Origin: Nereocystis luetkeana
Lineage: Eukaryota > Sar > Phaeophyceae > Laminariales > Laminariaceae
Assembly (NCBI GenBank): GCA_031213475.1
Contig: JARUPZ010000013.1
Span: forward strand, 4,382,739-4,446,738
Length of the DNA stretch: 64,000 nucleotides
Reading direction: 5' to 3'
Part shown: piece by piece, positions 31,801 through 50,840 of the stretch
Numbering within the stretch: the stretch's first letter is position 1
Layout: each line of letters opens with the position of its first letter
Notes under the pieces: model-generated
What the model saw: only the letters and a program-made list of their open reading frames with translations
Told to the model about the DNA's origin: nothing
Databases searched by the model: none
Position numbers and translations under genes: made by a program

Positions 31801-34800
31801 CACGAACTCGCTGAACTCGATCCCAAGATCTTCAGTCTCTTCCCACCGCGACCGCTTAAACTGTCGCTCTGAGATGGACCATCCATGGACGAGATGGCGA
31901 AATCCCTTAAGGGCATGTCGAACTGGAAAACTGCTGGGCTAGATGGTCGCCCGGCCGAACTCCTCTCAAGAGGAGGGGGGGGTACCTCTTTAGGGAGGGG
32001 TACCTCTTTTTCGACCGTATCATTGAGGGCCCGACGTCTTAACGAGAAGCCGTTTTTTGTGATGATCGAATAGGAAAAAAATAATTCGATTTGATTTGAA
32101 TGGAATTTCGTTAACAAAATGCCTGTGGGTCCTGTCGAGGAACAACGTGTTAAAACAAAATCAAATAACGCACAAGGTTCAAGGAACTCCGGAGGGCAAC
32201 CAACGGGGCGAACGACGGCCCGCGTCCTCCCCTGGGCGCCGCCCCTAATCCCCACGAAGGAAGCAACGACGGGGATACAGCGATCGAATTTCTGAGCGAA
32301 GTATGACCTGGTCGGCTCGTGTGTTTCGCGAGGCAAGGAGGGATGAGAAACTGGGTCTGCGACGGCCTTGTAATTTGTTGAGGCGCCGAGGATGGTCTAC
32401 TCTGTGCTAGGCGCCGTCGGACCTCTCGCTCCGGCTGCTCCGGTGGCCCTGCCTCTCGGGAATGGTGGATCATACGTGTGAAGTAGTCGACGACGCGGCT
32501 CAAGCTTGCGTGGCTTGCTTCGGTTTCACAAACATGCCACCTCGAGTTGAACAACTCCCGTCCCAAAAGACTTAATGTCGAATTCGTTTGTTTTCGTTTT
32601 ATTCGAATCAAGTGTCAAAATTCCTGCGTGGTGATTCGCTTTTCGACCAATCAAATGCAAATCAAATCAAACGAAAAAAATAGGGTTTGAGCCAAATTCA
32701 GGTATACCTGGCCACGTTTCGGTCAAAACCAAATCGATGCTATACAGAAACAATTACAAAACACACCCCAGGAGCACTGCTCCCGGCCATACGGACATCG
32801 TAACTGAGTCTGACTCGAAAGGGCCAAAGATATACCTGACTTTTCCTACTCTGTCTAGCTTTCAACTGATTGAGGCCAACTTTAAACCATTGAGAGAAGC
32901 CATAGGTGCACTCTATTTTTTCTCCGTATGATCTACCCTCCCTCGGTTGAAATTCTTCTGTATTGACCTATAAACTGCCTGGTATGTAGTCGTACATCGT
33001 ACGTAAACGTACTTAAATGCATACGGTGGTTTCCCTTGTTCTTTTTCAGGGTGTGCGATGTGCTTCAGTTAGTTGTTGTTATGTGTACTCTGTTGTTTTC
33101 TATGGTCACTGCAGTCTCTACAGTACCATGCACACACGGCAGTTCGTCTGCACCACCCCGCGTTGAGGTGGTCTCAGGTTTGGTTCGGCAAGGTAACTTC
33201 GTGCCGAGCAGGCGATTCCGCGAGGACGGTCCAGAAGCTTTAGAGCTGCCAACGGGGGGGGGGGGGCGTCAGAGTAAATACTCTTGGTGCTCCCGCCTTG
33301 GCGAAACAAATGAAGCCTAATAATATGAATAATGATTCTTTGCAGGTCCTCGCGTGGCCTGTAGTACCTGCACCCTAAAGAAAAGAAAACGTTTCAGATA
33401 TTGTAGGCCACGTGGCTTTAGAGGCGTTCTTTTTTACCGGATTTTCATGGACACAAACACCGCTCGTGGCGCGCGTTTTTTACTTAGTTTCAGCACGTAC
33501 CTGATTTTGGCATTTACCCCAAACAATGTTGGCGGGGTCTCATAAAAAAAACTTTCTCGTTAAGATGGGCCCTGATAGTCGGAGCTGGATAAGTTGGTTG
33601 AAGGTCGAACTGACCCTCGCGACATTCGTTGACGAGACGTTTCATCGGATATAAAAAGCTCCAACTCTCGGTATTTATTAAATAGGAGTTATTTAGGTAT
33701 TTGTCTCTTCAGCGCAAAGTTACCACTGATTCGGACTTTGATATACAACATGTGTGTGTGTTCTCCACGGTAAACCGTTCTTCTTACCCTTCAACATCCA
33801 GCGCAACCAGTGTCCGTGCCGATTCTTCAATCCTATTATTAATAATAGAAGATATACAAGCTCTGTGGGCACAAAGCTACACCACAGATATCCGTTCCCA
33901 CGTACCCGGTATGCAGTAAGCACAGCAGTGGGTAATGCATTGCCATGTCATGATGCTGGATACGACAGGCCCGGCATACACATGTTGTCTGAGTCAGTGA
34001 CCTACAGCCTAGTTTTGTGGACACTGGTTGTGCTGTTACAGTGTCAACAAAAAAGAACGGTTTAACCCTTTGAGGGCTGCAGTCCCGTTTTGGGGACAAA
34101 TTAGTTACCAGGTATAAATTGACTGGTTTAGCCCCAAAACGGGACTGCAGCCCTAAAAGGGTTGACCCATTCATTGTGATTGTGTAATATTAATATTACG
34201 GGTGACCATTATATCGTAAATAGAAGCAAATATTGTTGGTCAAAATAGGTACATACCTGGCACCTGGCATATGTTTTTTGTGTGTAACATAGGTCCTATT
34301 AACTATGCCCCCTCGTAATAGTCTCTCTTTGTCCACTACCTGGTCAAAGGGTTAATCCATGTAAATAAAACACACATCTTTAACATTGTTGATGTTCAAT
34401 GACGCCTCAGATTAACTACGTATGGGGGGGTTATTTATTTTCTGAAATCGGGGGGAATACCAGGTATACGTACTTATGTGAGCAAAAAGAGACGAGAGAA
34501 AGGACAGGAGAGGTTCAGGTGTTTTGGGGTCACACATCAAAGCAACTGACGCCAAGTCAAATCCCAAGGAGAATAACCTACCGTATGCATATTGTACTTA
34601 CGCGCGCAGTGTTGTAAATCGCGTGTTGCGATCATGATTTGATCGCGATTTCTGGTTCTCATGATCGCAGTTTATTTTTGAATTGACCCGCGATCACAAA
34701 TAATTACAGTGGAGGTCCCTCAATAAGGCGGAGTAAGGCGGTATCCCGATGCAAGACGGTCAAAAACGCTGGGCACGACTCGAACTACCGACTTACTGCG

Positions 34801-37800
34801 AGGATGGTTCCTCAATAGGGCAGTCTATCGCCTTGCTGAGGGCGGTCTAGACCTCCACATCTGCACAGACACCCTCCACCAGCTCTCGCACAGCAAGGCG
34901 TACCGCCCCAGCAGGACACACCAGTACATGCCACCCCACCAGGACACAACCCTACCGATCGAGCAGTAGAGGCGCACGATGCCCCTGCAGCAGGTGACCT
35001 GTGCACTACACCCAAGCCTCACACCAGAGGTCATGCTTGTAACAGTGGAGGAAGTGGTGGCCGGCTTCACGGCTTTTGTGTCGAGGTGGAGGAACCGGAC
35101 GGTGACAACGCAATGCGCTGCATCTGTCACGCGTGCGCTACTGCCAAGCCCTCCGCGAAAGATGGCGCGAAAGCCCCCGCGGGCAAGCGCTAAGGTACAG
35201 ACAATGAGGCCCGTGGGGCGGGACCGTGGAAGAGTGCAACATTTGGTTCAGGAAATTATGCTAAAAGCACGTCTCGCGCGCGGCTTACTCTGGACCAAAA
35301 GGTTGAAGTCTGCAACTGCTTGACCAGGCAGATACTTTCAACCCGATAGCAGGCCGTTCCAAGTGTGGCTTGCGCACGGTTTCCCGTGTCCAGGAGGAGA
35401 GGCGACCCTCTACCACCCAGGTGCTGGGTCGAAGCCAAGACGCTGCCGCTGGAGATGGAGGCTGCCCTCACGGCAGCCCACGGGAGAGGCGTACCAGACA
35501 GTCCCGCGGACCCCGCGGTGGAGGGGCTGGAAAAAAACGCTCAACAACGTGCGCTCACGTGTGCGCCGGGCAGATGAACAGGGGTCGCCCTTCACTGACA
35601 CAGATACGTGGTCAATTTGTTGGCCAAACTTGAACATCATCCCGGGAGAATGCGCCGACGAGGCCGTCATCGGCACGGCTCAGGTTTGGGCGACAGCGGA
35701 GGACTAGGAGGACGTCCTCGAAGCTATGCGGTTGGATGCGGTGGACGAGATGATGGAGCAGTTGGAAGGCGCTGGCGTGGGGGGCGTGGACTCCACTGAT
35801 GATGACGAGGAGGGGGACGGCGACAATGAAATGACGGGGTGCGGGGGCACCGTGCCACCGCCTTGAGCTAACTTTTTTCTCGAGCTTCGGCCGCCTAGAG
35901 AGGGCAGCGGAGAAGGGCGGCAATGACAACGCCGCCTTCCACCTACGGAAGGCCAGGATGGCGCTCATCGAAGCGCGTGCGTCCAAGCCAGTGCGACCGG
36001 CGGACATGAGGATTTTTGTTTCCAGGTCAAAGGAGGGGACGGGGGTTAGCGCAGCAGATTTGTGCTGCATTGTTCCGGTGTGGCGTTCCTGTAGCAACGT
36101 GTAGGCAGTAGGCGGTGCTAAGAGTGGTCTCAGTACGGCACAAGAGTCAGTTGTTTTCAATCACATTGAAACCTATATTCTGTCATAACTCTGCCGTGAT
36201 AAAAATAAAATGTTTCCAGCAGGTCTTCAACCTTATCATGTACCATGTGTGTATGCATCGGCGCTCTCGCTACTCATGGTGGAGCCCATTTCCGTCCCTG
36301 TTCGTTGTCACCCGCAGCACTCCTTCGGCGTGCAGCACCCTGTACCTGGTAGGACACAACACACCAAAACAAGGCATTTCCCTCATTAAGGTGGTAGTCG
36401 CCTTGCTGAGGTAATCCCACACCCTCAGTAACGCTGTAACCGTCCGCACTAAGGCGACCATAGTGCTCTGGCATACCACCGCCTTATTGAGGGACCGCCA
36501 CTGTATCGTGATCCTACATCGCGATCTACGATTACGATAGTTCAATCAAGCCTCGCTCTCCAGAACAGAGACCCAGCAAGAGTGCTTGCCCTTAGCTGCT
36601 AGCCCACACGGTCCGCCGTCTGCAGCAGGCTTCACGGCCTGCAAGCCTCATCGTCGGTGGGAGATGGGGAGGTAGAGGGACGGGATGCTGTCTAGTTCCT
36701 CTGGGTGGGCGAAACGACGCAGCCTGTTCTTGCAAATACCGGCAGTGGAGACTGTCTCAGTGCCTCAGTCCCCGCATGCACCACGCCATCGATACGTAGT
36801 GTGTTCATCTTCGTGCATTGGTGCACGAATTTTGTGTCTGGTGGTTGTGTCGTTGTGACGAGTGAAGGGGTGTGGTGGTGGTCGTAGGCGGTGAGATAAT
36901 ACCGAGTACAGGGTCACGTATACAACAACCAACCCAAGAGGCCAACATCGCTTATGGAGCATGACTCACGGATGCCTACAGTATTTGTAGCTGTTGTTGC
37001 TGTTGTTTGCTGCTGTCGTTGTTGTTGTTGTTGTTGTTGTTGTTGTTGCTTTATATTGCGGGGGACGATAGTTAATAGGACCAAATATTGTGAGTAAACA
37101 TGATTAAATAAATAGGTGTTTTATGCATACCATAGGTCCTACCAGGTATTAACTATGGTCCCCCGTAATAGTTGCTGTTGTGTTGTTGTTATCGTTATGT
37201 TATTGTTCTCACAAAGATACAACACGAGTGAGTCTGTTTGCGGGATGGTCGTGGCTGGACGTGGATCTCAGACGCCCAAATATCCGTCGGTTTCGTTACT
37301 TCCGGGTACAGCAGTAGTATTAATAGTGCATTCCTGTGCGTGCACCTGTGTATTCAGCATAAACGTTTGACGAACCAATGGTTAGTGCGCCCCCTGCGCC
37401 GGGTGCTCCGCACGCCTTTGACTGCTGCGCTATAAAAGCTGGGTTCCTCCTGAAATGCACCGCTTTGTGCCTGGATACAGTTGAGTACCCCCACTTAAGA
37501 GAGGTGTGGTACAGGCCAAAAACAGCCCTCTCTTTGCTGGATTTCTCTCATATCCGAGGCGTTCTACGACAGGGGTTCACCCTAAATTTTCTGAGGCTCC
37601 TCGCTGAAGGAGGTCCATGCCACACCCGAAAACTGACTTCTGCAAAAATCAAACTGCATCGCGGCGAATAATTCCATGGCCCAAGTCTACCAAACGTTTT
37701 GTTTCAAAATCAAGATTGACGTTCCGACGATTTGGGATCATGGAACCCCGTCTTCAAGAAACAAAATAGCGGAAATGTGCTGCCTTTATCGTAGAACGGG

Positions 37801-43800: not shown

Positions 43801-45936
43801 TATGCAGTAAGCACTGCAGTGGGCAATGCAATGCCATGTTCATCATACTAGGTACGACCGGCACGATATACACAATCTATGGAATAGAGAAACGAAAGGA
43901 AACAATCAATAATAAGGAATCAAAAACAAAGACAATTTGAAAGAGAAAAATAAAAATAAAATGAAAGAAAAAACTAGAAGAAAAAATCTGTCGTGCCCCC
44001 CCCACGCGGGCGAGGTTGCCAACACTTGAAAAAGAACGAGCTGGAAAGAAAAGAAAAAAAAATAACCAAAACACCGCTGCTTGTAAACAGAGTAAGCGTA
44101 GAACAAAGAACAGAGGAAAAAATAACTGAGGGAAAATAACTGGCAGACCAAAGCCCAAAGCACCCTCCAGGTGTGGCGGCAGCGGTTTGTGGTACGAGTA
44201 ATTACGGGGGACCATATTTAATGGGACCTATGGTGTAGATTTAAAAACCTATACATCCAACCATTTTTACTAACAATATTTGGTCCTGTTTACTATGGTC
44301 CCCCGTAAAAGTATACCTGGTAGCCAGGTTCTCCCTACTAACGCGTACGTATACCTGGTAGTTAGGGTACACCACATTACACCAGAAGATGGCCAGAATA
44401 GGCTATCTGGCAACCCCGCAATGAGGACGCCATTCCGAAGGAGTGTGGAGGAAGGTGGGAGCAGCACCTCCGCCCCTTTCGCCATGGGTGCATTGCCCGA
44501 GGCTGCCGCGCACTCGTGGCGCAAAATGTGCGGCTCTCTGGAATATGCCCCTCTACAGAGCGGTGTGAAATAGTAGTGCTTTCGGGGATACGATCTGGAT
44601 GCAACGTTTTTTTCCTCGATTTTCAGCATGGCGGTGAGGAGTGTGATGAGATTGATGGGGCACCATTCGGCGACGAAAAATTGTTTCTTCCGGATCTTGT
44701 GCGAGCTATTTTTGTTTTGTTTCACTTTTTTAAGTAGTATTTTTGTTTTGTTTGTTGTTGTTGTTCTCACATTAACTCCCTGACGAAGGAGTCCGTGGTC
44801 ACACAAAAGGTGCTGCAGCCCTAGGAAGATCCGAAAAACGAGAAAAAAAACGAAAATTCGGCTGCCTCAAAATCCACGAGACGAAGAAAGCGCACACGGG
44901 CTAAAACCAATGTGCAAACTGAACTAACATGGCCACGGGTATATCCTCTCAACTATAACATAGAGTACCCCCAGTATTATCCTATGCCAGGTACCTGGTA
45001 CCTGGTATTCTTTTACACGTACACCTGGTATGTTTGTTTCATTCCATTTCATTATTGTTCTCTCTTTCAATATATATGTGTGTTTCAGGTTTCAGGTGAT
45101 TGCTGGCGTGCTACGTCATGTGTGTGTGTGTGTGTGTGTTCTTCACATTAAACCGTTCTTTCTACCCGTCGACATCCAGCACAACCAGTGTCCGTGCCGA
45201 TTCTTCCATCCTAGAAGAGATACAAGTTCTGTGGTCACAAAGCTACGCCACAGAGATACTACGTTGCCACGTGTGCAGTGTGAACTGCAGTGGGCAATGC
45301 AAAGCCATGTCATCATACTAGATACGACAGGCACGACATACGCAATCTATGAAATAGTGAAACGAAAAGAAACAATCAAAGAGAAAACAAAAACAAGGTA
45401 GACAAGTCGAAAAAGAAAAAGAAGAAAAATGAAAGCAAAATCTAAGAGAAACAATCTGTCGTGCCCCCCCCCCCGCAGGCGAGGTGGCCTACACTTGAAA
45501 AAGAACGAGCTGGAAAAAAGAAGAAATAACAAAAGACACCACTGCTTGTGAACAGAGTAAGACAAAGAACCAAGGAGAAAGTAACAAGGAAAAATAACAA
45601 AGGGGAAATAACAGGCAGACCAAAGCCCAAAGCACCTTCTAGGTGGCGGCAGCAGCTTGTGGTACGAGTAGTATAGCCAGGTTCTCCCTGCTAATCCGCC
45701 TGGTACCTTGCTACCCAGACTGCCGTCTCCGCCCTGCGTTCGTCAACTATGCCCAGCCCCTTGGCGTCAGACAATACGAGCCGAGCAGAGCAGGTTCGTC
45801 TTCCAACCACGCCACACGGCTCCTTGAGTACGGCTTATCAATCAGAAAAGGAAGAGGAAGAGAAAAAATGAAATGAAAATCACGGAGAGTCAGCGCAAGA
45901 AAGAAAAAAAAAAAGAAAAAAAAAAAAAAAAAAAAA

Positions 45937-45967
<31 letters not shown>

Positions 45968-48642
45968 CTAAAAGAGAAGACAAGGGAAGACCACGTTCGA
46001 GCCAGCTGCACCAGTTGGTAGCACTAGTAGTATGGTCATATTCTACTTCCTAGTCGACTTGGTGCCTTGCTACCCTGTCTGCCATCTCCTTCCTACTTTC
46101 GTCTACCGCCGTTTCCCTTCTACCCCTCCTGTTCCCCCCCCTCTCCGCATTCACTCGGTCGGGCTTTATGCCACTTCTCCTGTTGCCCCCTCCCCCCCCG
46201 TTCCTTTGGGCACCATCCACGGCGGATGCGCGGCGCTGTCTACTCATCTCAGCCTCAGCCTCGTGCCACCTCACCATGAACCGTTCGGCTGCTTCAAGGA
46301 TCCCCCGGTACCACTTCCCCACCTTTTTGGCTGCAGTGGACCACAACGCGGTCTCAACTCCAAACACCAAGGGGGCAACTTCCGTTGACCCTTCGGTGGC
46401 TCGGAACTCCCTAAGGTCTTCGACTATGCATCTATGCCAAGTCTTACACTGTCCGCCTGGTCTCGGGTTCTCCCCACCAGCTATCGTCCCGAGCATTACC
46501 CGATTGGGTAATCGCTCCTTGCTTTGCCGTGCCACGCCCCCCGCAAAGAAGAGCCGCCGTTTGCGAATGGTCGTTTCGATGCTCTCGCAGCGTGTCATCT
46601 TGAGGGCCTTCGCGTACGAGAGGGTGGCATGGTCAGTACGAAGTCGGCGCTGGAAGCCAATGACTCGCAACAGGACTTGGTGGTGAGCCGTTCGAAGCTT
46701 GGCAAAGTGTTCCGCTCTGAGGGTCCACGTCACACACCCGTACAGCAGGGTCTCAATCACCTCGGCCTTCAGCATTCGGACTTTAAGGCTAAGGGGGGCG
46801 GTCGTCATGTACGGCGTTGTGGGAGCATCCCCAGGGCGATCGCGTGGCATATTGCCCTTTCTCTCGACGGTACTATTAATATTAATACCAGGTACCAGGT
46901 AGCTGTTATTAACAATAATAGTACCTATCGCTGTCTCATTGTGTAGTATGTGAACACAGAGCCTTTTTTTGTCTCTCTTTTTTTTCTTTTTTTTTCTTGC
47001 TCATACCATTTATTATCTTCGCCCATCTTCTTCTCTCTCTTTTTCCGACTCGTAACTCAGATCCGGGGTCACATAGCAGGCTCTTCTACCCCCTTCCCGC
47101 TACGGTACGTGCCTTCTTTTTTTATCGCGAGAAGATTTCAGCATTTTCTTCCCTCGTCGACTCGCATCGAGTTGTGCCTACCCACGCTGCAAGGCGCTCT
47201 CAACAATTGAATCCTTTTTTATTTTTTATTTTTGCAAATAAAGTCAAATGTCCGACCCACCTGAGGCTCGAACCCAGGCCTCAAACACAAGTAGAATTCG
47301 AGGTTAACCACTTGAATCACCGGGGCGACCGGCTCTATAGGTTGATAAAACGAAAAAACTGCTTGGACGCCGTTAGCAGCTGCTGCAGCTGCTTCTATTA
47401 TACTATTAAATACTATCAATATTATATACTACTACTGCTGTAGTAACTGCTGTAGTGTGCTGGATGCCGACCAAGAGTTCAAGAACCGTTGCACGTATAC
47501 ATACAGCAGGCAGTTGCAGTAGTGCATGTGTATTGTGTACCAGGGTAGGGCTTTTTATAATCCTTGGCGTGTGAAGTCAGTATTATTGTTGTGTGCTGTG
47601 TCAGGGTATAACCATACCGGGCATTATTTATTGTGTCCGGTACCAGTTTTGCTACGTACAACAGCAGACTGTCAGTGTGATAATGACACTCAAGAAGAAA
47701 AAATACGATTTTACTATTAATATATATACAGCAACTTGAAAAAAAAACGAATGCTTTTTACGTCCCAGGTGGCGAGTCCAGTGGCTTGGTAGGTGGTCCG
47801 CGTGCCCATCAAGATCAATTTCGTGGGTTCCTGTCTCACCGAGTGCATGCTCGTAGGGTACGCCCTACTGGGACTTCTTCTTGCATAATAAAAATGATTA
47901 GCGGTAAGCGCGAGAGCGTGAGCTACATTCGATGAAAATCGGTGAGCAGTGGGAATGCTGAACCCTATGCGCGACAAAAAATAAAGGCACGCACCGGGGG
48001 GGAGAAGGGTAGAAACCTGTGACAACGGCTTGTCCAGAAGAAGAAGCTCGTTGAGGGTAAAGTAAGTGACGATTAAAAAAAAACTGTTTATCATGTACCT
48101 GGTACACCTGGTACTGGTATTATTCGATATTAATATCAACAGTAGTTATTTATTTACTGGTATTTCTGAACTCGGGGAGACGAAAGGGAGGCGAAAAGAA
48201 GGTGGAGCAAAAGAGCTGCCGGTACATAAGCAGGACAGAGAAAGAACAGTACATCGCACACCCTGCCTGCTGTTTGCACACCCTGCGTAATATATAACCT
48301 GCTCCGCTCTCTCGCTGTCTTGGCATGATGGTAAAACCGCCCACTCAAGTATCTCGCTGTGTTCGCATGATGGCAAGACCGCCCACTCACATTTTTGTTC
48401 CAGTCGAAGCCTGCTTCGTCGTCTCTTGGGACTTCTTTCCCCGGGCCCACCGCAGGAGCCTCGGTGGCGCTGCTATAGCTCGATAATAATACTGGCTTGC
48501 TGGTGACGGCGGCGCGTGCTCCGGGAGCACGCGGCACCATGGTGGGCTGCAGCACCGCAGGAACGCGCAGCTGAAATCCATTGGAAACAGTGAGCATGAT
48601 ACCGCTGACGCCTAGCCACAAGAGAAAGCCTGACCAGACCAT
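1..48642 (-). CDS. Plastid-type Rieske oxygenase, PAO/CAO family; 13 exons, 3' end outside window
   Basis: A Rieske [2Fe-2S] plus mononuclear non-haem iron oxygenase of the pheophorbide a oxygenase / chlorophyllide a oxygenase / PTC52 / TIC55 group. Family members oxidise tetrapyrroles or related substrates at plastid membranes; the substrate here is unknown. Exons run 48642-48391, 22603-22547, 21298-21174, 19974-19854, 18221-18030, 13564-13534, 12311-12244, 11107-11030, 6906-6820, 4701-4660, 2271-2191, 1632-1541 and 72 to beyond 1. All phases agree, so 1298 coding bases give 432 residues with no stop. Rieske ligands are C126-x-H128 and C146-x2-H149; the iron site is N247-x2-D250-x2-H253-x4-H258. 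The N-terminus looks like a signal plus transit peptide. Plant family members are about 500 residues, so the C-terminal part lies outside. The gene looks intact; transcription is not shown. Exon assignment is from protein-family recognition and splice sites, without cDNA. Confidence 0.86.
660..752 (+). repeat. CAG-type triplet repeat
   Basis: Interrupted (CAG)n with a pure run of seven units at 720-741. Lies in intron 12, so polyglutamine or polyleucine readings are not meaningful. Confidence 0.85.
1275..1512. repeat. GGGTC/GACCC pentanucleotide satellite repeat, copy 1
   Basis: Runs of CGGGT and CGACC units separated by the spacer CCGTGAGATTTTGAA. The same arrangement recurs at 10160-10340, including the downstream GTGAAGA...CCGAAAA segment, so this is a dispersed element rather than simple expansion in place. 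Confidence 0.8.
1541..1632 (-). CDS. PAO-like gene exon 12
   Basis: Codes ERILTSAGYD to Thr408 plus two bases of Leu409. HSQ|ERIL joins as in homologues, and VFVPAAADIGVLT matches the family's VPTxxD segment. The acceptor is CTACAG and the donor GTGAGT at 1540. Confidence 0.85.
2191..2271 (-). CDS. PAO-like gene exon 11
   Basis: Codes residues 352-378. LPDWLQHVLGHLFMHQDMVF then LHSQ is the conserved block near the C-terminus of PAO proteins. The acceptor is TGCAG; an alternative cut 7 bases upstream would break phase. The donor is GC, not GT (CAG then GCGAGT at 2190), which the next exon's phase and sequence support. Confidence 0.85.
2503..2745 (+). mobile_element. F4 dispersed repeat ending in poly-C, full copy
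   Basis: About 230 bp. It opens near GCAAGTCCGCCTCACA, passes TTGGTGCAAGCAATG and CCCGGCATTGTAGGGATG, and ends GAGTACC(C)n. Ten or so copies occur between 2.5 and 21 kb and none elsewhere in the window. SINE-like in size, but no tRNA box was found. The consistent poly-C end is unusual. Confidence 0.75.
2921..2932. repeat. TA microsatellite
   Basis: Short (TA)n in intron 10; nothing else recognised from 2750 to 3380 apart from GGT/GGC-rich triplets near 2995-3035. Confidence 0.7.
3387..3407 (+). repeat. 21-bp G homopolymer
   Basis: One of 18 plus-strand G runs of at least 10 bases in the first 17 kb. The rest of 3410-3770 shows no gene. Confidence 0.9.
3771..3884. mobile_element. F1 MITE
   Basis: About 110 bp with inverted ends TTACGGGGGACCATAG ... 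and its complement, and an AT-rich middle. It is flanked by TA and inserts into TA (see nested copies), so a Tc1/mariner-like mobiliser is likely. Diverged copy. Confidence 0.75.
4108..4341 (+). mobile_element. F3 MITE
   Basis: About 235 bp with inverted ends GCGTTCTACGATAGAGGT. The body has AGCACATTTCCGC, a GTCGGAATG block and TCGGGTGAGGT. Seven copies in the window; nested insertions in three show this is the oldest of the three MITE families. Confidence 0.8.
4624..4659. repeat. AT microsatellite forming a 5' splice site
   Basis: (AT)n whose last units on the minus strand supply the GTATAT donor of intron 10. Confidence 0.75.
4660..4701 (-). CDS. PAO-like gene exon 10, 42-bp exon
   Basis: Codes 14 residues, ARKGLVEVAPTFCY, between CRM of exon 9 and PHKLPDWL of exon 11. 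The acceptor has a good pyrimidine tract (TGTGTCTTCCCCAG). The donor, GTATAT at 4659, is formed by the start of an AT microsatellite. Chosen over another open segment at 6379-6465 because frame, splice sites and the residues expected before LPxWL all fit. This is the weakest of the internal exons. Confidence 0.68.
4909..5022. mobile_element. F1 MITE
   Basis: Left end CTATTACGGGGGACTATAG is clear; the right end is degraded. Inside intron 9. Confidence 0.68.
5197..5294. mobile_element. F2 MITE, TTAA-flanked
   Basis: About 95 bp, nearly one perfect hairpin: TTAA, then CCCTTTAGAACCGCAGTC and GTTTTGGGGACAAA, with the complement on the other side. Nested copies prove a TTAA target. TTAA plus CCC ends suggests a piggyBac-type mobiliser (inference). 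Confidence 0.82.
5592..6108 (+). repeat. Minisatellite, about 50-58-bp units
   Basis: About ten units of CTTTATACCGTATCACACTA followed by TCACACGGGTGATAACATAA and a C-rich spacer. Each unit has the inverted pair ATCAC/GTGAT. Inside intron 9. Spacer positions are conserved too, so it is not a CRISPR array. Confidence 0.85.
6286..6305 (+). repeat. 20-bp G homopolymer
   Basis: Long G run in intron 9; another of 16 bases at 6516-6531. The 6110-6820 stretch otherwise holds no supported gene. Confidence 0.9.
6820..6906 (-). CDS. PAO-like gene exon 9
   Basis: Codes residues 309-337: VTIDTPNQDG, then KIVLYCVPTRPGWCRM, a recognisable PAO-family block. The acceptor is CGTAG and the donor GTATCT at 6819. 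Phase 0, 29 codons. Confidence 0.88.
7020..7415. other. No recognisable feature
   Basis: AT-rich intron 8 sequence without open frame, repeat match or splice-supported exon. Confidence 0.5.
7418..7778. repeat. F6 repeat rich in AGATC
   Basis: About 350 bp with CAGATCATCTACAGATCATG near the left, a GTTTCCTGG...TTGAAT middle and TAGATAGATCATGATC near the right. Four copies (here, 11267, 12985, 15500). Confidence 0.7.
7914..8021. mobile_element. F1 MITE
   Basis: Diverged copy, ends ACGGGGGGACCGTAG and CTATGCTCCCTACCGT. Inside intron 8. Confidence 0.66.
8320..8672 (+). mobile_element. F3 MITE interrupted by F2
   Basis: F3 with the F2 copy at 8519-8627; both ends recognisable (GATATAGAGGT, CTCTATCGTGGAATGCCTC). 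Confidence 0.78.
8519..8627. mobile_element. F2 MITE nested in an F3 MITE
   Basis: F3 reads CTCCTTAAGTGAGG elsewhere; here F2 sits at that TTAA. The right TTAA has decayed to TCAA. Confidence 0.8.
9022..9262 (+). mobile_element. F4 repeat copy
   Basis: Full-length copy of the poly-C-ended family, followed at once by a second copy in the same orientation. Confidence 0.78.
9280..9475 (+). mobile_element. F4 repeat copy, 5' truncated
   Basis: Starts inside the element at ATGCAGCTCACCCTTC and ends in a C-rich tract. Confidence 0.75.
9719..10000 (+). repeat. Interstitial telomere-like CCCTAA array and flank
   Basis: CTAACC units at 9760-9805, some changed to CTGACC, followed by a G/C-rich flank. 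A second degraded array lies at 49735-49785. Intronic, so not a chromosome end. Confidence 0.7.
10160..10340. repeat. GGGTC satellite repeat, copy 2
   Basis: Same GGGTCGGGT runs, CCGTGAGATTT spacers and 3' segment as the copy at 1275-1512. Confidence 0.78.
10558..10929 (+). mobile_element. F3 MITE interrupted by F1
   Basis: GATGCGTCCTACGATAGAGG to CTCTATCGCAGAAGGCCTC with F1 at 10593-10701. Lies just outside exon 8 of the PAO-like gene. Confidence 0.78.
10593..10701. mobile_element. F1 MITE nested in an F3 MITE
   Basis: F3 copies read CCGCTAAAACG here; this copy reads CCGCTA, then F1, then TAGAATGG. That shows a TA target duplication and that F1 moved after this F3 copy. Confidence 0.82.
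11030..11107 (-). CDS. PAO-like gene exon 8
   Basis: Codes residues 283-308 (GGFTLLNKPN then FVQFHAPTL). The GF and APTL pattern matches the beta-rich catalytic domain of PAO/CAO proteins. The acceptor is ACGCAG and the donor is a strong GTGAGT at 11029. Phase 0, 26 codons. Confidence 0.86.
11267..11702. repeat. F6 repeat interrupted by F1
   Basis: ATCATCTACAGATCATCGAC, then the F1 MITE at 11384-11514, then GCTCATTTTGCCGGGTGGGA and the rest of F6. Confidence 0.7.
11384..11514. mobile_element. F1 MITE nested in an F6 repeat
   Basis: Inserted in the middle of the GATC-rich F6 repeat; flanked by CTA/TAG. The middle contains an extra CCCTGGTA after TATA compared with other copies. Confidence 0.75.
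11827..11846 (+). repeat. 20-bp G homopolymer
   Basis: In intron 7; 11703-12240 otherwise has no supported exon. Confidence 0.9.
12244..12311 (-). CDS. PAO-like gene exon 7
   Basis: Completes Gly260 and codes IMGNRDMAAPVKLELVDS to Lys282. HHG followed by IMGNR at this point is standard for the family. The acceptor is GTCACAG and the donor GTGGGA at 12243. 68 bases restore phase 0. Confidence 0.88.
12340..12560 (-). mobile_element. F4 fragment plus companion module, with 26-bp G run
   Basis: Reverse F4 3' end, then a G run at 12415-12440, then a module reading GTACTCGTTTGTCGGTTGTC to ACACAAGGG. The same module occurs reversed at 20935-21075 and as a stub at 12833-12880. It may be a second part of the family. 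Confidence 0.6.
12590..12802 (-). mobile_element. F4 repeat copy, reverse
   Basis: Near full length in minus orientation; followed by a 23-bp G run at 12809-12831. Confidence 0.75.
12833..12963 (-). mobile_element. F4 repeat copy, reverse, truncated
   Basis: Carries the companion-module stub and the GATCTCATGCATGGCC end of the family. Confidence 0.65.
12985..13297. repeat. F6 repeat
   Basis: Uninterrupted copy: TACAGATCACC, GCTCATGTTGCCGGATGGGA, TCCTGGGTTGGGTGATCTG. Confidence 0.7.
13298..13533. other. Intron 6 left part, nothing recognised
   Basis: Unique-looking sequence directly downstream of microexon 6; no repeat match within the window. Confidence 0.4.
13534..13564 (-). CDS. PAO-like gene exon 6, 31-bp microexon with iron ligands
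   Basis: Only 31 bases: DPAHVVVSHH plus one base of Gly260. It holds three predicted ligands of the catalytic iron (D250, H253, H258); N247 is in exon 5. The acceptor is CTGCAG and the donor GTGCGT at 13533. Without this exon the protein would lack its active site, and both neighbours need it for phase. Confidence 0.88.
13565..14020. other. Intron 5, right-hand part
   Basis: Open on the minus strand for some length but lacking family motifs. Two 12-bp G runs (13720, 13990). No gene supported. Confidence 0.4.
14023..14448. mobile_element. Cluster of three or four diverged F1 MITE copies
   Basis: A partial copy (14023-14105), a whole copy (14110-14217) and one or two degraded head-to-tail copies to 14448, recognised by repeated AGGACC...AATATTG...TACTATGG blocks. 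Inside intron 5. Confidence 0.6.
14500..15182 (+). repeat. Minisatellite, five units of about 133 bp
   Basis: Units read CAGCAGGCTTTTCTCCCACC, GGGGACGG...CCGTCCCCGG (an inverted pair) and TTGCCGGCGATGGAAGTG. Inside intron 5. Readable frames in it are a by-product of low divergence. Confidence 0.85.
15186..15295. mobile_element. F1 MITE
   Basis: Ends CTATTACGGGGGACCATAG and CTATGGTCCCCCGAAAT. It directly follows the 133-bp tandem array. Confidence 0.78.
15589..15735. mobile_element. F1 MITE carrying TACCTGGTA insertions
   Basis: Longer than other copies because TACCTGGTACCTGGTA (15611-15626) sits where other copies have a single TA, and there is more extra sequence near 15655. Confidence 0.78.
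15735..15936. mobile_element. F1 MITE interrupted by an F2 MITE
   Basis: Abuts the preceding F1 copy. The F2 element at 15753-15846 splits it at TTAA. Confidence 0.8.
15753..15846. mobile_element. F2 MITE nested in an F1 MITE
   Basis: Inserted at the TTAA of the F1 segment GTTAATAGGACC; both TTAA copies are present. Confidence 0.82.
16150..16404 (-). mobile_element. F4 repeat copy, reverse
   Basis: Full-length copy; a 20-bp G run (16385-16404) sits at its upstream edge and an F1 MITE follows directly. Confidence 0.76.
16405..16515. mobile_element. F1 MITE
   Basis: Typical copy with ends TAGGGGAGACCATG and ACTATGGTCCCCCGTGATAG, next to a 20-bp G run. Confidence 0.76.
16680..16746. repeat. 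GTT triplet repeat
   Basis: (TTG)n with a few interruptions, intron 5. Confidence 0.85.
16747..17435. other. Intron 5 middle, no supported exon
   Basis: Short open frames on both strands without recognisable domains or splice support. Confidence 0.4.
17437..17536. repeat. CTA triplet repeat
   Basis: About 30 units of CTA/TAC with CTG variants, intron 5. Confidence 0.9.
18030..18221 (-). CDS. PAO-like gene exon 5
   Basis: Codes residues 186-249. It opens VAQGLIWVWGD, a hallmark after the Rieske domain in this family, and ends DLPYGWEIFMENVV, which leads into the mononuclear iron motif with N247 present. The acceptor is TCGCAG and the donor is a strong GTGAGT at 18029. Phase 0 at both ends, 64 codons. 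Confidence 0.92.
18314..18574 (+). mobile_element. F3 MITE
   Basis: CACGCGTTCTACGGTAAAAG to CTCTATCGTAGAACGCCTC; diverged body. Confidence 0.74.
18862..19088 (+). mobile_element. F4 repeat copy
   Basis: Full-length copy ending in 13 C. Inside intron 4 of the PAO-like gene. Confidence 0.76.
19425..19662 (+). mobile_element. F4 repeat copy
   Basis: Copy with a short duplication of GCAGGATGCA near its 5' end. Inside intron 4. Confidence 0.75.
19854..19974 (-). CDS. PAO-like gene exon 4: second half of Rieske site
   Basis: Codes the end of Leu145 to Gln185. CAYHAWRFDSDGKC carries the second Rieske pair (C146, H149), 17 residues after H128, which is normal spacing. KIPQ and YPTQ are typical of the PAO group. 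The acceptor is CTGCAG and the donor GTGACA at 19853. Confidence 0.92.
20280..20420. repeat. CAG/CAA-rich triplet tract
   Basis: Mixed CAGCAA and ACAACA triplets in intron 3. Confidence 0.7.
20738..21078 (+). mobile_element. F4 repeat copy plus companion module
   Basis: F4 3' two-thirds (20738-20930), then the module seen at 12440-12560 in inverted form. Inside intron 3. Confidence 0.68.
21174..21298 (-). CDS. PAO-like gene exon 3: first half of Rieske site
   Basis: Codes residues 104-144 plus two bases of codon 145. It contains KDLVVWRDAEGTW and the Rieske motif RCPHR (C126, H128), then LTEGRVEKDG. The acceptor follows GAAATCAG and the donor is GTGAGC at 21173. The split Leu145 codon is completed by exon 4. 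Confidence 0.9.
21655..21750. mobile_element. Degraded F2-like copy
   Basis: AATTCCAAGTAGTTTGTCTACC then AGTCCTAAACGGGTAAAG keep the family's middle and right end. Left end unclear. Confidence 0.4.
22083..22334 (+). mobile_element. F3 MITE
   Basis: Uninterrupted reference-like copy with intact ends; inside intron 2. Confidence 0.8.
22547..22603 (-). CDS. PAO-like gene exon 2
   Basis: Codes residues 85-103, beginning WYPVLALKGTDP, the conserved start of the oxygenase core. The acceptor is CGGCAG just upstream (22606-22604, in minus-strand sense) and the donor is GTGGGT at 22546. Phase 0 at both ends; 57 bases is exactly 19 codons. Confidence 0.82.
22804..22862. repeat. CAG triplet repeat
   Basis: Twelve CAG units, then CAA variants, close to exon 2. 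Confidence 0.85.
23578..23683. mobile_element. F2 MITE, diverged
   Basis: GGACTGCAGTCCCGTTTTGG ... ACTAAAAGAGTTAA. Inside intron 1, close to exon 2. Confidence 0.72.
23690..24050. other. No recognisable feature
   Basis: Short frames only; no domain or repeat match. Confidence 0.4.
24060..25640. repeat. Diverged tandem array, about 165-bp units
   Basis: Nine or ten units marked by GCTTGAGTGCGAGGGCTAGG, TACCGACATCGCG, GGCTCATTCAGCTTGGG and CCCTTCAGACGGG. Landmark spacing is 147-173 bp. It ends shortly before the DIRS fossil and may be its upstream non-coding part (inference). Confidence 0.82.
29530..29745 (+). repeat. Direct repeat of the DIRS-type fossil, copy 1
   Basis: TTACTTAGCCCC...AACGGGGACCCCACGACGGG...GTCGGCGAACGTGCCTTGCC, repeated at 30175. 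Confidence 0.85.
30175..30392 (+). repeat. Direct repeat of the DIRS-type fossil, copy 2
   Basis: Same landmarks as 29530-29745, about 85% alike by eye. The 430 bp between the two includes a short tandem GGAGGCAGCGGGAGCTACGA. Confidence 0.85.
30780..31150. repeat. Duplicated segment with TCACGGATCGTGA palindrome
   Basis: GAAATGTCACGGATCGTGAC ... TTCTGGTTCGTTAAGAACG occurs at 30850-30935 and again at 31070-31145. The 30395-30780 stretch before it holds nothing recognisable. Confidence 0.7.
31312..31670 (-). mobile_element. F3 MITE, reverse, interrupted by F1
   Basis: Starts GGCGTTTTACGATAGAGGT; F1 at 31539-31648. Abuts a LINE fragment on its right. Confidence 0.78.
31539..31648. mobile_element. 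F1 MITE nested in an F3 MITE
   Basis: Splits the reverse F3 copy at its TGCTACCTCT segment, leaving TACCTCTATCG on the right. Confidence 0.8.
31667..31975 (+). pseudogene. LINE fragment: linker before reverse transcriptase
   Basis: Reads KFIRDEDGTLVRDTVRIRRR with WSGYYHELLNT, then in another frame MDEMAKSLKGMSNWKTAGLD GRPAELL. These are the endonuclease-RT linker and the first RT motif of non-LTR retrotransposons. It is frameshifted at about 31880 and the rest is missing; a dead fragment. Confidence 0.75.
31976..32924. other. No recognisable feature
   Basis: AT-rich, short frames only (for example plus 32737-32931). No domain, splice-backed exon or repeat match. Confidence 0.4.
32925..33560 (+). 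repeat. F9 dispersed segment, copy 1
   Basis: CCCTCGGTTGAAATTCTTCT and, further on, GGTTTGGTTCGGCAAGGTAA / CGATTCCGCGAGGACGGT. The second block is repeated at 43115-43330 and the first at 41540, so this is part of a larger mosaic repeat. Confidence 0.6.
33745..33990 (+). repeat. F7 dispersed repeat
   Basis: TGTGTGTTCTCCACGGTAAACCG, CAACCAGTGTCCGTGCCGAT, ending CATGTCATGATG. Five copies in the window. Confidence 0.78.
34062..34166. mobile_element. F2 MITE carrying TACCAGGTA
   Basis: TTTAACCCTTTGAGGGCTGC to CCTAAAAGGGTTGA. TACCAGGTA at 34106-34114 interrupts the usual loop. Confidence 0.78.
34192..34320. mobile_element. F1 MITE with a CCTGGCA doublet
   Basis: Other copies read AAATATATAGG; this one reads ACATACCTGGCACCTGGCATATG, about 14 extra bases that are close to two CCTGGTA units. 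Confidence 0.75.
34707..36503. mobile_element. TA-flanked Tc1/mariner-pogo-like DNA transposon, degenerate
   Basis: 1797 bp with 25-bp inverted ends (CAGTGGAGGTCCCTCAATAA..., 24 of 25 match) flanked by TA on both sides. A second inner inverted pair contains CGCCTTGCTGAGG. Internal frames (for example plus 34979-35323) contain no transposase motif I can recognise, so the copy is non-autonomous or decayed. Confidence 0.85.
36990..37052. repeat. GTT microsatellite
   Basis: (GTT)n that continues beyond the F1 MITE at 37172-37200. Confidence 0.85.
37053..37171. mobile_element. F1 MITE inside a GTT microsatellite
   Basis: It sits between GTT repeats on both sides. It contains GGTCCTACCAGGTATTAAC where other copies read GGTCCTATTAAC, a clean 7-bp insertion. 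Confidence 0.8.
37200..37555. other. No recognisable feature
   Basis: Short frames only. Confidence 0.4.
37556..37803 (-). mobile_element. F3 MITE, reverse
   Basis: GAGGCGTTCTACGACAGGGG to CTTTATCGTAGAACGGGTC. Confidence 0.76.
37980..38500 (+). repeat. Tandem repeat of about 60-bp units, diverged
   Basis: Units with CAATCTATTGTGGCAGGC, GGTAGTGTCTATCGATTG and CCCCACAAT. Probably an older relative of the satellite that follows. Confidence 0.6.
38690..41055. repeat. 58-bp satellite with two orientation switches
   Basis: The core is AATCAATTGTCCGGACAATT followed by CCAATTAATAGACAGTCTCC. Plus orientation 38690-39330, minus orientation about 39480-40130, plus again 40420-41055. The central CAATTG...GGACAATTG part is itself palindromic. 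An F2 MITE interrupts it at 40517-40615. Confidence 0.82.
40517..40615. mobile_element. F2 MITE inserted in the 58-bp satellite
   Basis: Interrupts a satellite unit after GGGCAATTCCATT, so it post-dates the array. Confidence 0.78.
41060..42878. other. Intron 1 sequence without a supported gene
   Basis: A CGAGCAC/GCACGAGC short repeat at 41105-41150, an F9-like piece near 41535-41600, and open frames at 42033-42443 without domains. Two TACCWGGTA motifs (42527, 42613). Confidence 0.4.
43457..43566. mobile_element. F1 MITE
   Basis: Well-preserved copy inside the 2.1-kb long-inverted-repeat element. Confidence 0.8.
43640..43885 (+). repeat. F7 dispersed repeat
   Basis: Contains the double motif TACCAGGTACCAGGTA (43787-43802), where the 33745 copy reads GTACCCGGTATGCAG. 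Confidence 0.78.
44199..44310. mobile_element. F1 MITE with an empty-site counterpart
   Basis: The duplicated block at 45120-45690 lacks it (GGTACGAGTAGTATAGCC at 45660), so this insertion came after the duplication. Confidence 0.82.
45120..45690 (+). repeat. Duplicate of 43640-44340
   Basis: F7 copy, then the A-rich segment AAACGAAAAGAAACAATC...GGTGGCGGCAGCAGCTTGTG. It matches 43640-44340 except for the F1 insertion and small changes. Confidence 0.8.
45660..45745 (-). mobile_element. LINE 3' end fragment
   Basis: The reverse strand matches the last codons and the 3' flank of the LINE at 46020-46850 (GCAAGGTACCAGGCGGATTAG against GCAAGGCACCAAGTCGACTAG). Confidence 0.55.
45909..45966 (+). 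repeat. A-rich homopolymer tract
   Basis: Long interrupted poly-A with AAAAC units. Confidence 0.85.
46050..46850 (-). CDS. LINE reverse transcriptase C-terminal part, open 266 codons
   Basis: Reads LKAEVIETLLYGCVTWTL, then AHHQVLLRVIGFQRRLRTDH, ALKMTRCESIETTIRKRRLF FAG and a basic tail. This is the region after the RT domain of non-LTR retrotransposons (the YGCETWTL and RRIGFxRRxRTD blocks). The frame is still open to its stop. The upstream RT and endonuclease are missing, so this is a 5'-truncated copy. It sits on the same strand as the PAO-like gene, in its first intron. Confidence 0.82.
   Translation of the reverse strand: MPRDRPGDAPTTPYMTTAPLSLKVRMLKAEVIETLLYGCVTWTLRAEHFAKLRTAHHQVLLRVIGFQRRLRTDHATLSYAKALKMTRCESIETTIRKRRLFFAGGVARQSKERLPNRVMLGTIAGGENPRPGGQCKTWHRCIVEDLREFRATEGSTEVAPLVFGVETALWSTAAKKVGKWYRGILEAAERFMVRWHEAEAEMSRQRRASAVDGAQRNGGGGGNRRSGIKPDRVNAERGGNRRGRRETAVDESRKEMADRVARHQVD
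46960..47335 (-). mobile_element. tRNA-derived SINE, copy 1
   Basis: On the minus strand the head (47333-47255) has an A-box-like TGATTCAAGTGG and a perfect B box, GGTTCGAGCC. An AAATAAAAAATAAAA linker and a body with GAAATCTTCTCGCGATAAAA and GTAGAAGAGCCTGC follow. The body is shared with copy 2. Confidence 0.72.
47755..48078 (+). mobile_element. tRNA-derived SINE, copy 2, opposite orientation
   Basis: The head at 47763-47840 has CAGTGGCTTGGTAGGTGG and GTGGGTTCCTGTCTCACC. The body GAATGCTGAACCCTATGCGC ... GGGTAGAAACCTGTGAC matches copy 1. The tail is A-rich. Confidence 0.65.
48391..48642 (-). CDS. PAO-like gene exon 1: plastid presequence and start
   Basis: Codes residues 1-84. Met at 48642 opens a hydrophobic stretch (residues 5-19) followed by VSNGFQLR. 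Phe23 is a plausible +1 residue of the transit peptide, as in the ASAFAP-type cleavage motif of heterokont plastid proteins. A Ser/Ala/Arg/Pro-rich region follows. The exon ends in GFDWNKN, which joins in phase 0 to WYPV of exon 2, the usual start of the conserved PAO/CAO core. The donor is GTGAGT at 48390. An in-frame Met lies 49 codons upstream (48789), but the signal peptide fits the 48642 start better. Assigned despite a 25.8-kb intron because motif, phase and targeting signal all agree. Confidence 0.78.
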
Positions 48643-48703
48643 GATGGAGGGACTGACAAACTGGAAACTCAGCCGTCGCGGTATTCGTGTAGCGCGTAGC
48701 TGG

Positions 48704-48711
48704 TATAAATA
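48704..48711. promoter_or_regulatory. Possible TATA box upstream of the PAO-like gene
   Basis: TATAAATA (plus strand), 62 bases upstream of the chosen start codon. The best TATA orientation is on the plus strand, so it could equally serve a divergent transcript. Position only; no other support. Confidence 0.2.
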
Positions 48712-48789
48712 CAAGTTCGTATTGTAAGTCGTAGATAGTTGACAAAAAACAAAAGCAACGAAATGGATCACAATAAATCGCCAATCCAC

Positions 48790-49290
48790 TACTACCCGGT
48801 ACTATTTACTATCCTGCCGCTGGAGAGAAACGCCTTGATCCTTGACAGCTTATTGACAGCTTCGCGCCAGGATTATTTTAGTCGGGCCTCTCGCTTTGTC
48901 AGAGGCAGATACCGCCAAGATTCGCTTCCGCGGGGGGGGTGGGAAGCTTCGGGGCAGGTTCGTGCGTGGGTGCGCTGTGTTCGTCTGCGTACGCTACCAT
49001 CGAAAAAAGACCCAGTAGCTTAACAATACTTTCGATATACGGCCCTGGGGGATAGGACACATGTCAGGCCAATCAGAAAAAGCTACGGGAATCCTGATCA
49101 GAAAAAAAAAAAAAAAAACTGTGAAGGCTTTTCATCACGGGCAGTGGTCGGTATATTATCGCGCCGTACATAGTGACTGATGTCAATGCGACATTTTAGA
49201 CTGTTGCCTGCTGCCCCTGTGTGCTGCGTGGTGAGTGTGGTGAGCTGTGAGCTGTGAGCAGCGTTATCAATCGCGTTTTGCAATGACCAT
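48790..49290. other. Upstream region of the PAO-like gene
   Basis: Plus frame 48739-49023 is open but unrecognised, and diverges from the PAO-like gene. A poly-A run lies at 49104-49119. No supported second gene. Confidence 0.35.
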
Positions 49291-49294
49291 ATCA

Positions 49295-49352
49295 CCGTAC
49301 ATCTCGACGGGTAGAAAGAACGGTTTAATGTGAAGAACACACACACACACAT
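49295..49352 (-). repeat. F7 fragment
   Basis: CTCGACGGGTAGAAAGAACG GTTTAATGTGAAGAACACAC, the 5' end of F7. Confidence 0.7.
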
Positions 49353-49617
49353 CTATAATCGCGACAAAATCGCGATATGTATGTACAATACAGCAGTTAC
49401 TGTATAATCAATAATTATATCGTAAATATTTAATGTAATCGAGATCGTAAAAAACAATAATAATACCTTCGATCACGAGATATTTTACGAGTAAAATTGG
49501 CAAATATCGTACGTCGTCAGAAGTTTCAATTGCAACAACGCATTTGAAACCCGCTGGAAAACACTTATTATTGATACATTTCAATATATAGTACTCGTAC
49601 ATACAGGGCGCGGGCTA

Positions 49618-49960
49618 CGTGCAGCTAGCTGCTAGCTGCATCCTGCACGAAACATTGTGCAGGAAGTGTGCCGTCAATTTCAACCTTAAACGTGGACCCA
49701 GACCAAGCCAACCCTAGGCCTGGCCCTACAAACCTATAACGGTTACCCTAACGCGAACCCTAACCCGGACCCCAACCCTTGGGAGGGCTCGACGTCGGGG
49801 CTCGAGGTCGGCAGGGGCAGCTACGCGGCCCCGCCACGTGTTTGGGGGGGCGTTTTTCTAAGCACAGCCGGGCGGCCGAAAGACCCGCTTTGACCAATAA
49901 CACCCGCATCCTGCATTTTTTTTTTTTTTGTGCAGGATGCAGCCACACATAGCTCGAGCC
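49618..49960. repeat. Inverted GCATCCTGCAC segment with degraded telomere-like repeat
   Basis: CTAGCTGCATCCTGCACG at 49632 is inverted as GTGCAGGATGCAGCC at 49930. Between them lie CCCTAACGCGAACCCTAACC and a 12-T run. Confidence 0.6.
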
Positions 49961-50742
49961 TACAAACAAACAGGAGCGCACCAAGGTCACCAACATTGTG
50001 TTTCGTCTTCCCGCTGGCGGCATGGAGTCATGCATCTTCAGTCAAATATTTAATGTTGTTCACCAAATTCATACTCGCATCTCCTGTAAGTAGTCCTTAC
50101 TTCGGACCCTGGTTTTCACTGTTTTCAGGGGGAGGGGTTCGTGGCCATTGTCTCCGTAGAGGACTACTTTCTGCTTGTTGTATGTATCGCGATTACCATA
50201 ATATATACCAGGTATGCGATTATATTTTTCGTCTGCGATCAATCGCGATAAAAGAACCAAACGATTGAGTGTATTATTGCATGTAGTTTTAATCGTGTCG
50301 TACCTTTCTTGACGTGATTTCCAAACTGTTGACTGTGAGTGCCAGACCCTCAACCCCCTACCCCAACTCAACAATCAACCAATATATATATGTGGCCGTC
50401 TTCGTCCCGTCAACAGCAGCCGGCGTGCGTCAACCGTACAACAGTAGTAGTACCAGGTAAGCGTCTATATAGTGTTACGCTGGACTATTTGTAATACCTG
50501 GTACGAGTATATAGATAGTAGTGTCCTATAAAGGTGTGGTACGTAGGGGCAGTAAAAGCTCCTCAACTGGGCGAACCACCACATAAATGTTATACCAGGT
50601 GTATATCTATTATGTTTAGGGCCTATTTTTCAGTTTGATGTTCAGTATTTTCCCGAAATTTCGGTATTATTGGGAAAATACGGACAAATAAATACTGAAA
50701 TTTCGGGAAAAAACTGAAAAAAAAACTAGAAAACAGCACTCG
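49961..50742. other. Intergenic, no gene supported
   Basis: Three TACCWGGTA motifs (50207, 50451, 50495) and a TTTCGGTATTATTGGGAAAA-type short inverted repeat at 50645-50715. Confidence 0.4.
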
Positions 50743-50840
50743 TTAACCCCTTTAGAACCCCAGTCCCGTTTTGGGGACAAACTACTCGAAATTTGAGTGA
50801 ATTGTCCCCAAAACGGGACTGCGGTTCTAAAAGGGTTAAG
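50743..50840. mobile_element. F2 MITE
   Basis: Well-preserved hairpin, TTAA on both sides. Confidence 0.84.

Follow-up and report, generated by a model that had tools for sequence, protein, structure and literature searches.

The 9-mer TACCWGGTA occurs at 182,395 places in the genome of the brown alga Nereocystis luetkeana and, wherever the direction of change can be judged, it has arisen by a gain of 7 bp at a TA dinucleotide, so that TA becomes TA-CCWGG-TA. We studied these sites, which we call scars, in a window of 64,000 nucleotides (GenBank assembly GCA_031213475.1, contig JARUPZ010000013.1, positions 4,382,739 to 4,446,738) and in the rest of the assembly. Four features are observed directly: 7 bp are gained at TA; the gain recurs at one TA, on several sub-haplotypes and with A or T at the centre; the target is symmetric; and a 6-nt form of the insert has a polarity. 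The scars are probably excision footprints, left by a cut-and-paste DNA transposon whose insertion duplicates a TA target. The enzyme would most likely be a transposase of the TA-targeting DDE kind, such as that of the pogo-like DDE_1 elements of this genome; the parent family was not found in the searches described below.

TACCWGGTA occurs 27 times in the window, against a mean of 0.54 and a maximum of 4 in dinucleotide shuffles, and 0 of 100 shuffles gave 27. A first-pass annotation of the window had reported 22 places and proposed a genome-wide count as a check. All 22 are present, one of them displaced by a single base (50206, not 50207), while the total was too low, since the site at 6057 had been overlooked and each tandem double (15611, 43787, 44992, 46886) had been entered once; the range it gave, 34106-50503, was likewise too narrow, as the sites begin at 6057. 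The genome-wide count bore out the excess: in the assembly of 465,085,209 bases and 1,987 contigs, the first of which starts with TTAGGG-type telomere repeats (641 matches in locus L009), the reversed pattern used as a control occurs 1,744 times. The genome's size, its G+C near 50%, the TTAGGG telomere and the element mix that passages of PMC12477816 give for Ectocarpus would suit a brown-algal host. With 422 copies per Mb against 392 per Mb for the genome, the window is typical. In a 264-kb sample, in which 20 stretches of 10 kb were added to the window, there are 106 copies where a third-order model expects 2.0, CCWGG is the most enriched of all TA-N5-TA classes with at least five copies, and the average TA carries a scar in 0.72% of cases.

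Repeat copies with and without the 9-mer give the direction of the change. F1, a miniature inverted-repeat transposable element (MITE), contains a TA in the context GGTCC|TA|TTNACTATGG. In this exact context 21,624 copies genome-wide are empty and 387 carry TACCWGG (1.8% of 22,011), in agreement with the earlier claim of a gain rather than with a 9-mer that is ancestral and lost elsewhere. The two pairs on which that claim had been built read as described. In F1, the copy at 37131 shows GGTCC-TACCAGG-TATTAAC against GGTCCTATTAAC in other copies; in the block at 44311, AGTATACCTGGTAGCCAGG (with the scar TACCTGGTA, 44314..44322) corresponds to AGTATAGCCAGG in the window's other copy, which reads TATAGCC there. 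At both the F1 TA and 44314, scarred and empty copies thus differ by a duplicated target and a few bases, the mark of an excision footprint. Three more copies of the block lack the CCWGG insert, one reading TATAGCC (locus L023, 6571), one an altered TACAGCC (L022, 906), and one carrying a different 4-bp insert, TATAGATAGCC (L023, 2501). The sample and the fetched loci hold three scars in F1 copies, all at this same TA, with 31, 26 and 25 empty, 1, 0 and 0 scarred and 4, 1 and 7 other copies. Two of the three lie in the window, the tandem double at 15611..15626, next to GGTCC|TA in the minus-strand reading (36 aligned copies: 31 empty, 1 scar, 4 other), and TACCAGGTA at 37140..37148 (32 aligned copies: 25 empty, 7 other, 0 scar). 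On the strength of these three scars the F1 TA seemed at first to be a strong hot spot, a view that we dropped, the genome-wide 1.8% being about 2.4 times the average TA. The exact-context F1 site is present about 22,000 times genome-wide (C1 and elsewhere), often with two copies in opposite orientation at a distance of 78 bp.

For a wider comparison, the flanks of 114 scar sites from the sample and the fetched loci were joined at TA, and other copies of the joined sequence were sought. Other copies were found for 27 sites, 17 of them with at least one empty copy and 10 without; the other 87 had no alignable second copy in the DNA examined. At the scar TACCAGGTA at 6057..6065, six of seven aligned copies are empty (three of these read TA) and one is other. 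Paralogues of the tandem double at 43787..43802 occur in three states, scarless, single and double: its aligned copies comprise three empty (1 TA, 2 TG), two scarred and three other, and the site reads as a single variant scar, TACCCGGTA, at 33903..33911 (CCCGG centre) and as a scarless TG at 45272. We considered TACCCGGTA as a plain centre variant of the CCWGG scar, but this holds in part only, since the flanks of its 13 copies do not have the same logo. A self-comparison gave 134 seven-base gaps; 24 of them are rotations of TACCWGG, concentrated in few places, and the listing of 7- and 14-base gaps comprised six sites.

The same target has been struck repeatedly. Of the 387 copies with a scar at the F1 TA, the first 100 comprise 60 with CCAGG and 40 with CCTGG (binomial P 0.057), and both centres are present on every flanking F1 haplotype seen at least four times, so many of the gains must have been independent. 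It is thus highly improbable that copying alone explains the scars, a few old ones having been multiplied within high-copy repeats. Copying does occur: the 1.1-kb repeat of loci L029-L034 carries inherited scars and accounts, by eye, for 9 of the first 100 of 2,141 scar-adjacent rows. Its fetched copies are 74-88% identical and all six, which were selected for carrying scars, have a double scar; of the nine rows picked by eye, one combines an A with a T centre and in the other eight both centres are A. Scars are therefore heritable and copyable, and the TACCWGGTA count overstates the number of events. Against copying as the sole source stand both centres on each common F1 haplotype, a 6-nt form found in both orientations, and the 87 of 114 sites without an alignable second copy.

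Scars also decay. One-mismatch neighbours of the scar number 109 in the sample, against 49 expected, beside the 106 exact copies, and the TA has become CA, AA or GA in 14 of 100 F1 rows. As a rough estimate in both respects, the excess of mismatches points to scars that have diverged by several per cent per site and to a real total closer to 300,000. This bears on the idea that the parent elements reside in the germline and are removed from the sequenced tissue, as ciliate internal eliminated sequences (IESs) are at TA, leaving scars behind. Such programmed elimination would account for many scars and no elements, and the parallel is close in some respects: according to passages of PMC9942856, TA-bounded elements are removed en masse in Paramecium and Blepharisma, and Blepharisma has IESs that stem from a pogo-family transposon and its MITE. 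We nevertheless regard it as very unlikely here. The scars behave as inherited DNA that decays by point mutation, and eight of nine rows of the 1.1-kb repeat share the same two centres. The same passages give IES excision as confined to the somatic nucleus and precise in Paramecium, inferred to be precise in Blepharisma and imprecise in Tetrahymena, unlike the inherited and mutating scars seen here.

Under the excision reading, a TA-targeting DDE transposase would cut one strand 5 nt inside an element end beginning 5'-CCAGG(G). Excision would leave each flank with an identical 5-nt 3' overhang, TA-CCAGG, and the two overhangs could anneal (C:G, C:G, A.A, G:C, G:C) and be ligated. Depending on how the central A.A mismatch is resolved, the product would be TA-CCAGG-TA or TA-CCTGG-TA, in either case 7 bp longer than before, and both A and T centres are therefore expected in the 5-nt form. 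Longer inserts have a polarity. Where GGTCCTACCWGG is continued without TA, 100 rows include 56 with the 6-nt form CCAGGG and 0 with CCTGGG, and 3 with the 7-nt form CCAGGGG and 0 with CCTGGGG. The 6-nt polarity recurs in the sample (TACCAGGGTA 11, TACCTGGGTA 0), so the donor end should read 5'-CCAGGG. At the F1 TA the 6-nt form is present in both orientations, one of them in 14 of 27 rows read from the other side. The CCGG form TACCGGTA and the CCAGGG form TACCAGGGTA have the same flank logo as the scars, in small numbers, and nine of the 27 rows at the F1 TA have CCAGGACC, which looks as if GG microhomology had removed the TA. A scheme in which the ends are trimmed and filled (3+2, 2+3, 4+2, 2+2) also fits the length forms and likewise needs an end starting CCAG.

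The flanks of non-tandem scars form a symmetric logo, with a purine before the TA and a pyrimidine after it, and T/A then A at -7/-6, mirrored on the other side. A second TA lies at exactly 5 bp on 49 of 170 scar sides, compared with 1,919 of 28,950 (6.6%) in the background (odds ratio 5.70, P 1e-18, unfiltered); with simple repeats removed on both sides the figures are 37 of 136 and 1,682 of 25,582 (6.6%; odds ratio 5.31, P 1e-13). Spacings of 0, 2, 6 and 8 are also raised, less strongly, with and without the filter, and a spacing of 3 in the unfiltered set only. Because only 7 of the 49 five-base spacers match CCWGG at four of five positions (background 4.9%), the majority are not former scars. 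In copies that read TA-GGTCC-TA-TTAAC-TA, the F1 TA matches the preference on both sides.

A scar is itself TA-N5-TA and so recreates the preferred target, which could account for the tandem doubles: each scar would offer two new preferred targets, each with a second TA 5 bp away. The sample contains nine doubles, where hits falling on scar TAs at random would produce about 1.5 and hits weighted by the odds ratio about 8-9, the latter being a ceiling, since no scar has stood open to new hits throughout. All four centre combinations occur, mixed in 38 of 100 doubles and the same in 62, and slippage therefore cannot account for all of them. The earlier proposal that a double is a second hit on the new TA thus gains from both the target preference and the mixed centres, even though same-centre doubles are commoner. 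It is scarcely credible, on the other hand, that the 9-mer is a selected or mutational motif, be it a site of binding or methylation or a microsatellite, (TACCWGG)n, with a 7-bp unit. Tandem doubles do exist, and highly iterated palindromes are reportedly found elsewhere (HIP1 in cyanobacteria); however, nine doubles and no triples among intact units in 264 kb make no microsatellite array, A and T centres are mixed within doubles, and exact-context F1 copies are nearly all empty with TA, the flanks having a target preference.

Several observations weigh against excision as the source of the scars. Only 17 of the 27 alignable sites have any empty copy, and two of the 17 belong to the 1.1-kb repeat, where an empty copy merely has fewer units. 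Empty copies also lack TA at some sites: at TACCAGGTA in a MITE starting TTAACCC (34106..34114), one of 28 has it (38 aligned copies, with 10 other and 0 scar), and at L020 8093 none of three, so an ancestral TA is not demonstrated for every site. The 60:40 split of centres is borderline, some scars of the 1.1-kb repeat were inherited by copying, and same-centre doubles outnumber mixed ones 62:38, some of which may be slippage products or copies. The 7-nt polarity is absent from the sample (TACCAGGGGTA 2, TACCTGGGGTA 2, both TACCTGGGGTA occurrences being in copies of one repeat). The main form of 5 nt, with minor forms of 4, 6 and 7 nt, exceeds the footprints of 2-4 bp that passages of PMC7913693 give for Tc1/mariner, and would therefore not be a Tc1/mariner footprint proper, only one working alike. 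Finally, we recognised no CCAGG-ended element among 135 TACCWGG contexts other than scars from the fetched loci, in 100 of the 2,141 contexts beside scars, at the F1 TA in 100 of 157 rows and all 42 of a further set (one side), in 27 of 60 rows read from the other side (26 continue as F1, 1 is unclear), or in 100 of 1,850 TACCAGGGGV contexts, where the four recurrent families checked proved to be repeat-internal.

Other searches for the parent gave similar results. None of 98 TA-flanked inverted-repeat pairs in 264 kb starts with CCWGG. Among 993 TACCNGG...CCNGGTA pairs of up to 9 kb with similar inner sequence, the best 25 were AT-rich DNA, scars or weak matches. DDE_3 had no match among 30 candidates scored in the genome, and mariner Transposase_1 and Transposase_21 had none in searches that were equally blank in control genomes and so do not show absence. 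DDE_1 has 28 matches, with CCAGG ends in none whose ends are visible; ten of the 28 lie in the nine loci L035-L043, with ends seen for L042, L043 and L035 (an 8-bp inverted end), none of them CCAGG. About one fifth of 100 rows at the F1 TA do not continue as F1, and these are single apart from a CAACACGAGCT repeat and one pair. Several candidates were rejected: the recurrent TACCAGGTACCAGGGTA..GGTACGAG is the 1.1-kb repeat with inherited scars; three fetched copies of the CAACACGAGCT rows beside GGTCCTACCWGG (6 of 100) stay similar upstream of the TA; copies of TACCAGGGGGGARAAGGG in the sample have their upstream flank in common; and a further three recurrent TACCAGGGG rows (L047-L055) lie within repeats. 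We also saw one CCTGGGGTTNNGTCAATCCC-like pair among the F1 TA rows not continuing as F1, two of the 42 rows with TGTTGAGGAATA in common, out of register, and several further recurrent rows among the 100 of 1,850 TACCAGGGGV contexts. The parent may be rare, lost, different in its ends from our forecast, or nonexistent. The excision footprint put forward in the first-pass annotation is the best-supported mechanism, yet one that we infer, and the CCAGG-ended parent that it too had missed was not found in these contexts.

If there is no parent, a TA-cutting enzyme might add or template CCAGG onto both 3' ends, which would then anneal with no transposon ever present, what is gained being the 7-bp unit as such. 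The contexts examined yielded no donor although the scars exceed 180,000, the product requires only identical CCAGG 3' extensions on both sides, and the forms of 4, 5, 6 and 7 nt (CCGG, CCWGG, CCAGGG, CCAGGGG) could reflect variable addition. We think such an origin unlikely all the same. We know of no enzyme that adds the same 5 nt to both ends at a cut TA; a symmetric target with contacts at plus/minus 6-7 would be expected of a pair of transposase molecules; and other element families of this genome with known ends match 3-nt scars of like design.

Those other families are pogo-like sequences with DDE_1 domains (28 matches, with Pfam for four loci; the domain was assigned by Pfam in L042, L043 and L037 and by the genome DDE_1 search in L035). 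Like the elements that excision would require, they have TA on both sides, terminal inverted repeats and DDE_1, and unlike them their ends begin CCG or CAG, not CCAGG. At L042 (C34:4443200-4450500) one copy is nested in another in the opposite orientation, with a DDE_1-bearing reading frame; the copy at 1004-4506 has the ends CCGTAATCATGCGGAGG and CCGGAATCATGCGGAGG, with TA on both sides, and begins CCG. The nested copies are 98.5-99.5% identical over 1,008 and 1,888 bp, so the family moved recently. The element at L043 1609-3586 has the ends CAGTACCGGCCCGCTAGTAAGAAA, TA on both sides, and begins CAG, and that at L035 38-2061 has the 8-bp inverted end CAGTGGGG, also beginning CAG, its left end being common to L037. 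TA-CWG-TA (85 against 35.4) and TA-CSG-TA (69 against 28.5) are the top two of 32 TA-N3-TA classes. If these elements leave 3-nt scars of the Sleeping Beauty type, the match of their CAG and CCG ends to the most enriched classes (TA-CAG-TA, TA-CCG-TA) would serve as an internal control for the scar design; the excess is modest (2.4 times), and the TA-CWG-TA flanks lack a comparable logo. The elements of L043 and L037 directly adjoin CCAGG|TA (at L043 1602-1610 and L037 1217-1223), and scars may thus also attract insertions of other elements. As side observations, window 35412-35747 is 69% similar to L040 2328-2659, part of a DDE_1-bearing locus, and is a possible pogo-like remnant; a Pfam search with the reading frame at 35612-36160 gave no match. 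Five DDE_1 matches (C2:7920664, C809, C872, C1099, C1378) have the same score and stops and are either recent copies or unplaced assembly duplicates.

F1 appears to leave a scar of its own. TATTAATA (TA-TTAA-TA) is 12-fold enriched in the sample (124 against 10.1 expected, both strands), and F1 ends, TTACGGGGG, directly adjoin it at L026 9955, window 15583 and window 34188. With its end TTACGGGGGACC and its TA duplication F1 resembles the system that would make TACCWGGTA, but its apparent footprint is even (2+2 nt), without a central mismatch, and has its own target logo, with another preference beside the TA. A further motif, TACAGCAGTA/TACTGCTGTA, is found 29 times in the sample where 1.2 would be expected, some copies being in tandem and some next to CCAGG scars (places include L028 5032, L043 204 and 6452, and window 17546), and is perhaps a 6-nt footprint; eight of the 29 TACAGCAGTA copies lie in similar context in the repetitive stretch 62219-63517 of the window.

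The remaining scars of the window, to which no strand is assigned, come from the motif count. TACCAGGTA lies at 6627..6635, 10949..10957, 34458..34466, 42613..42621, 43628..43636, 50206..50214 and 50451..50459, and TACCTGGTA at 14373..14381, 19103..19111, 36343..36351, 38058..38066, 42527..42535, 44352..44360, 48096..48104 and 50495..50503. Tandem doubles are present at 46886..46901 and at 44992..45007, the latter preceded by an apparent decayed third unit (TGCCAGG). Several scars are clustered in (TA)n-rich DNA at L018 1659-1870. The MITE around 34106 we take to be piggyBac-like; it is one of the short palindromic repeats starting TTAACCC at 34049-34166, 50743-50839 and 51548-51644, whose ends presumably resemble those of piggyBac.

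The closest known parallel to the proposed excision is Sleeping Beauty, whose footprint is said to be TA-CWG-TA with A or T at the centre. Passages of PMC7827188 describe a nick 3 nt inside the element, repair by non-homologous end joining and a footprint that equals the 3' overhang. TA duplication, short 3' overhangs on both flanks and a footprint identical to the overhang would be common to the two systems; they differ in length, 5 nt here and 3 nt there, and in the roughly 180,000 scars of a single genome whose parent was not found. In the passages available from the cited papers, excision footprints come from reporter assays, a few at a time, whereas one type is present here about 180,000 times, and we found no published report of such a footprint at this scale in a search limited to the open-licence literature. 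Longer than usual, possibly self-seeding and of a scale not found in print, it would be a variant on known excision footprints.

A single assembly thus offers enough scars to study the choice of target, the length of the overhang, the resolution of mismatches and decay. Each gain of 7 bp adds a palindromic site and shifts the reading frame wherever it falls in coding sequence. Should the parent be lost or nearly lost, one must ask how a transposon could act so often while leaving hardly any copies, or indeed whether the process requires a donor. One possibility, which we offer tentatively and with considerable doubt, is a self-seeding system in which a very-low-copy transposon or a donorless enzyme reopens TAs and leaves TA-CCWGG-TA, so that scars breed scars. 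Were this true, the genome would gain, by a rough estimate, some 2 Mb in 7-bp steps without retaining an element.

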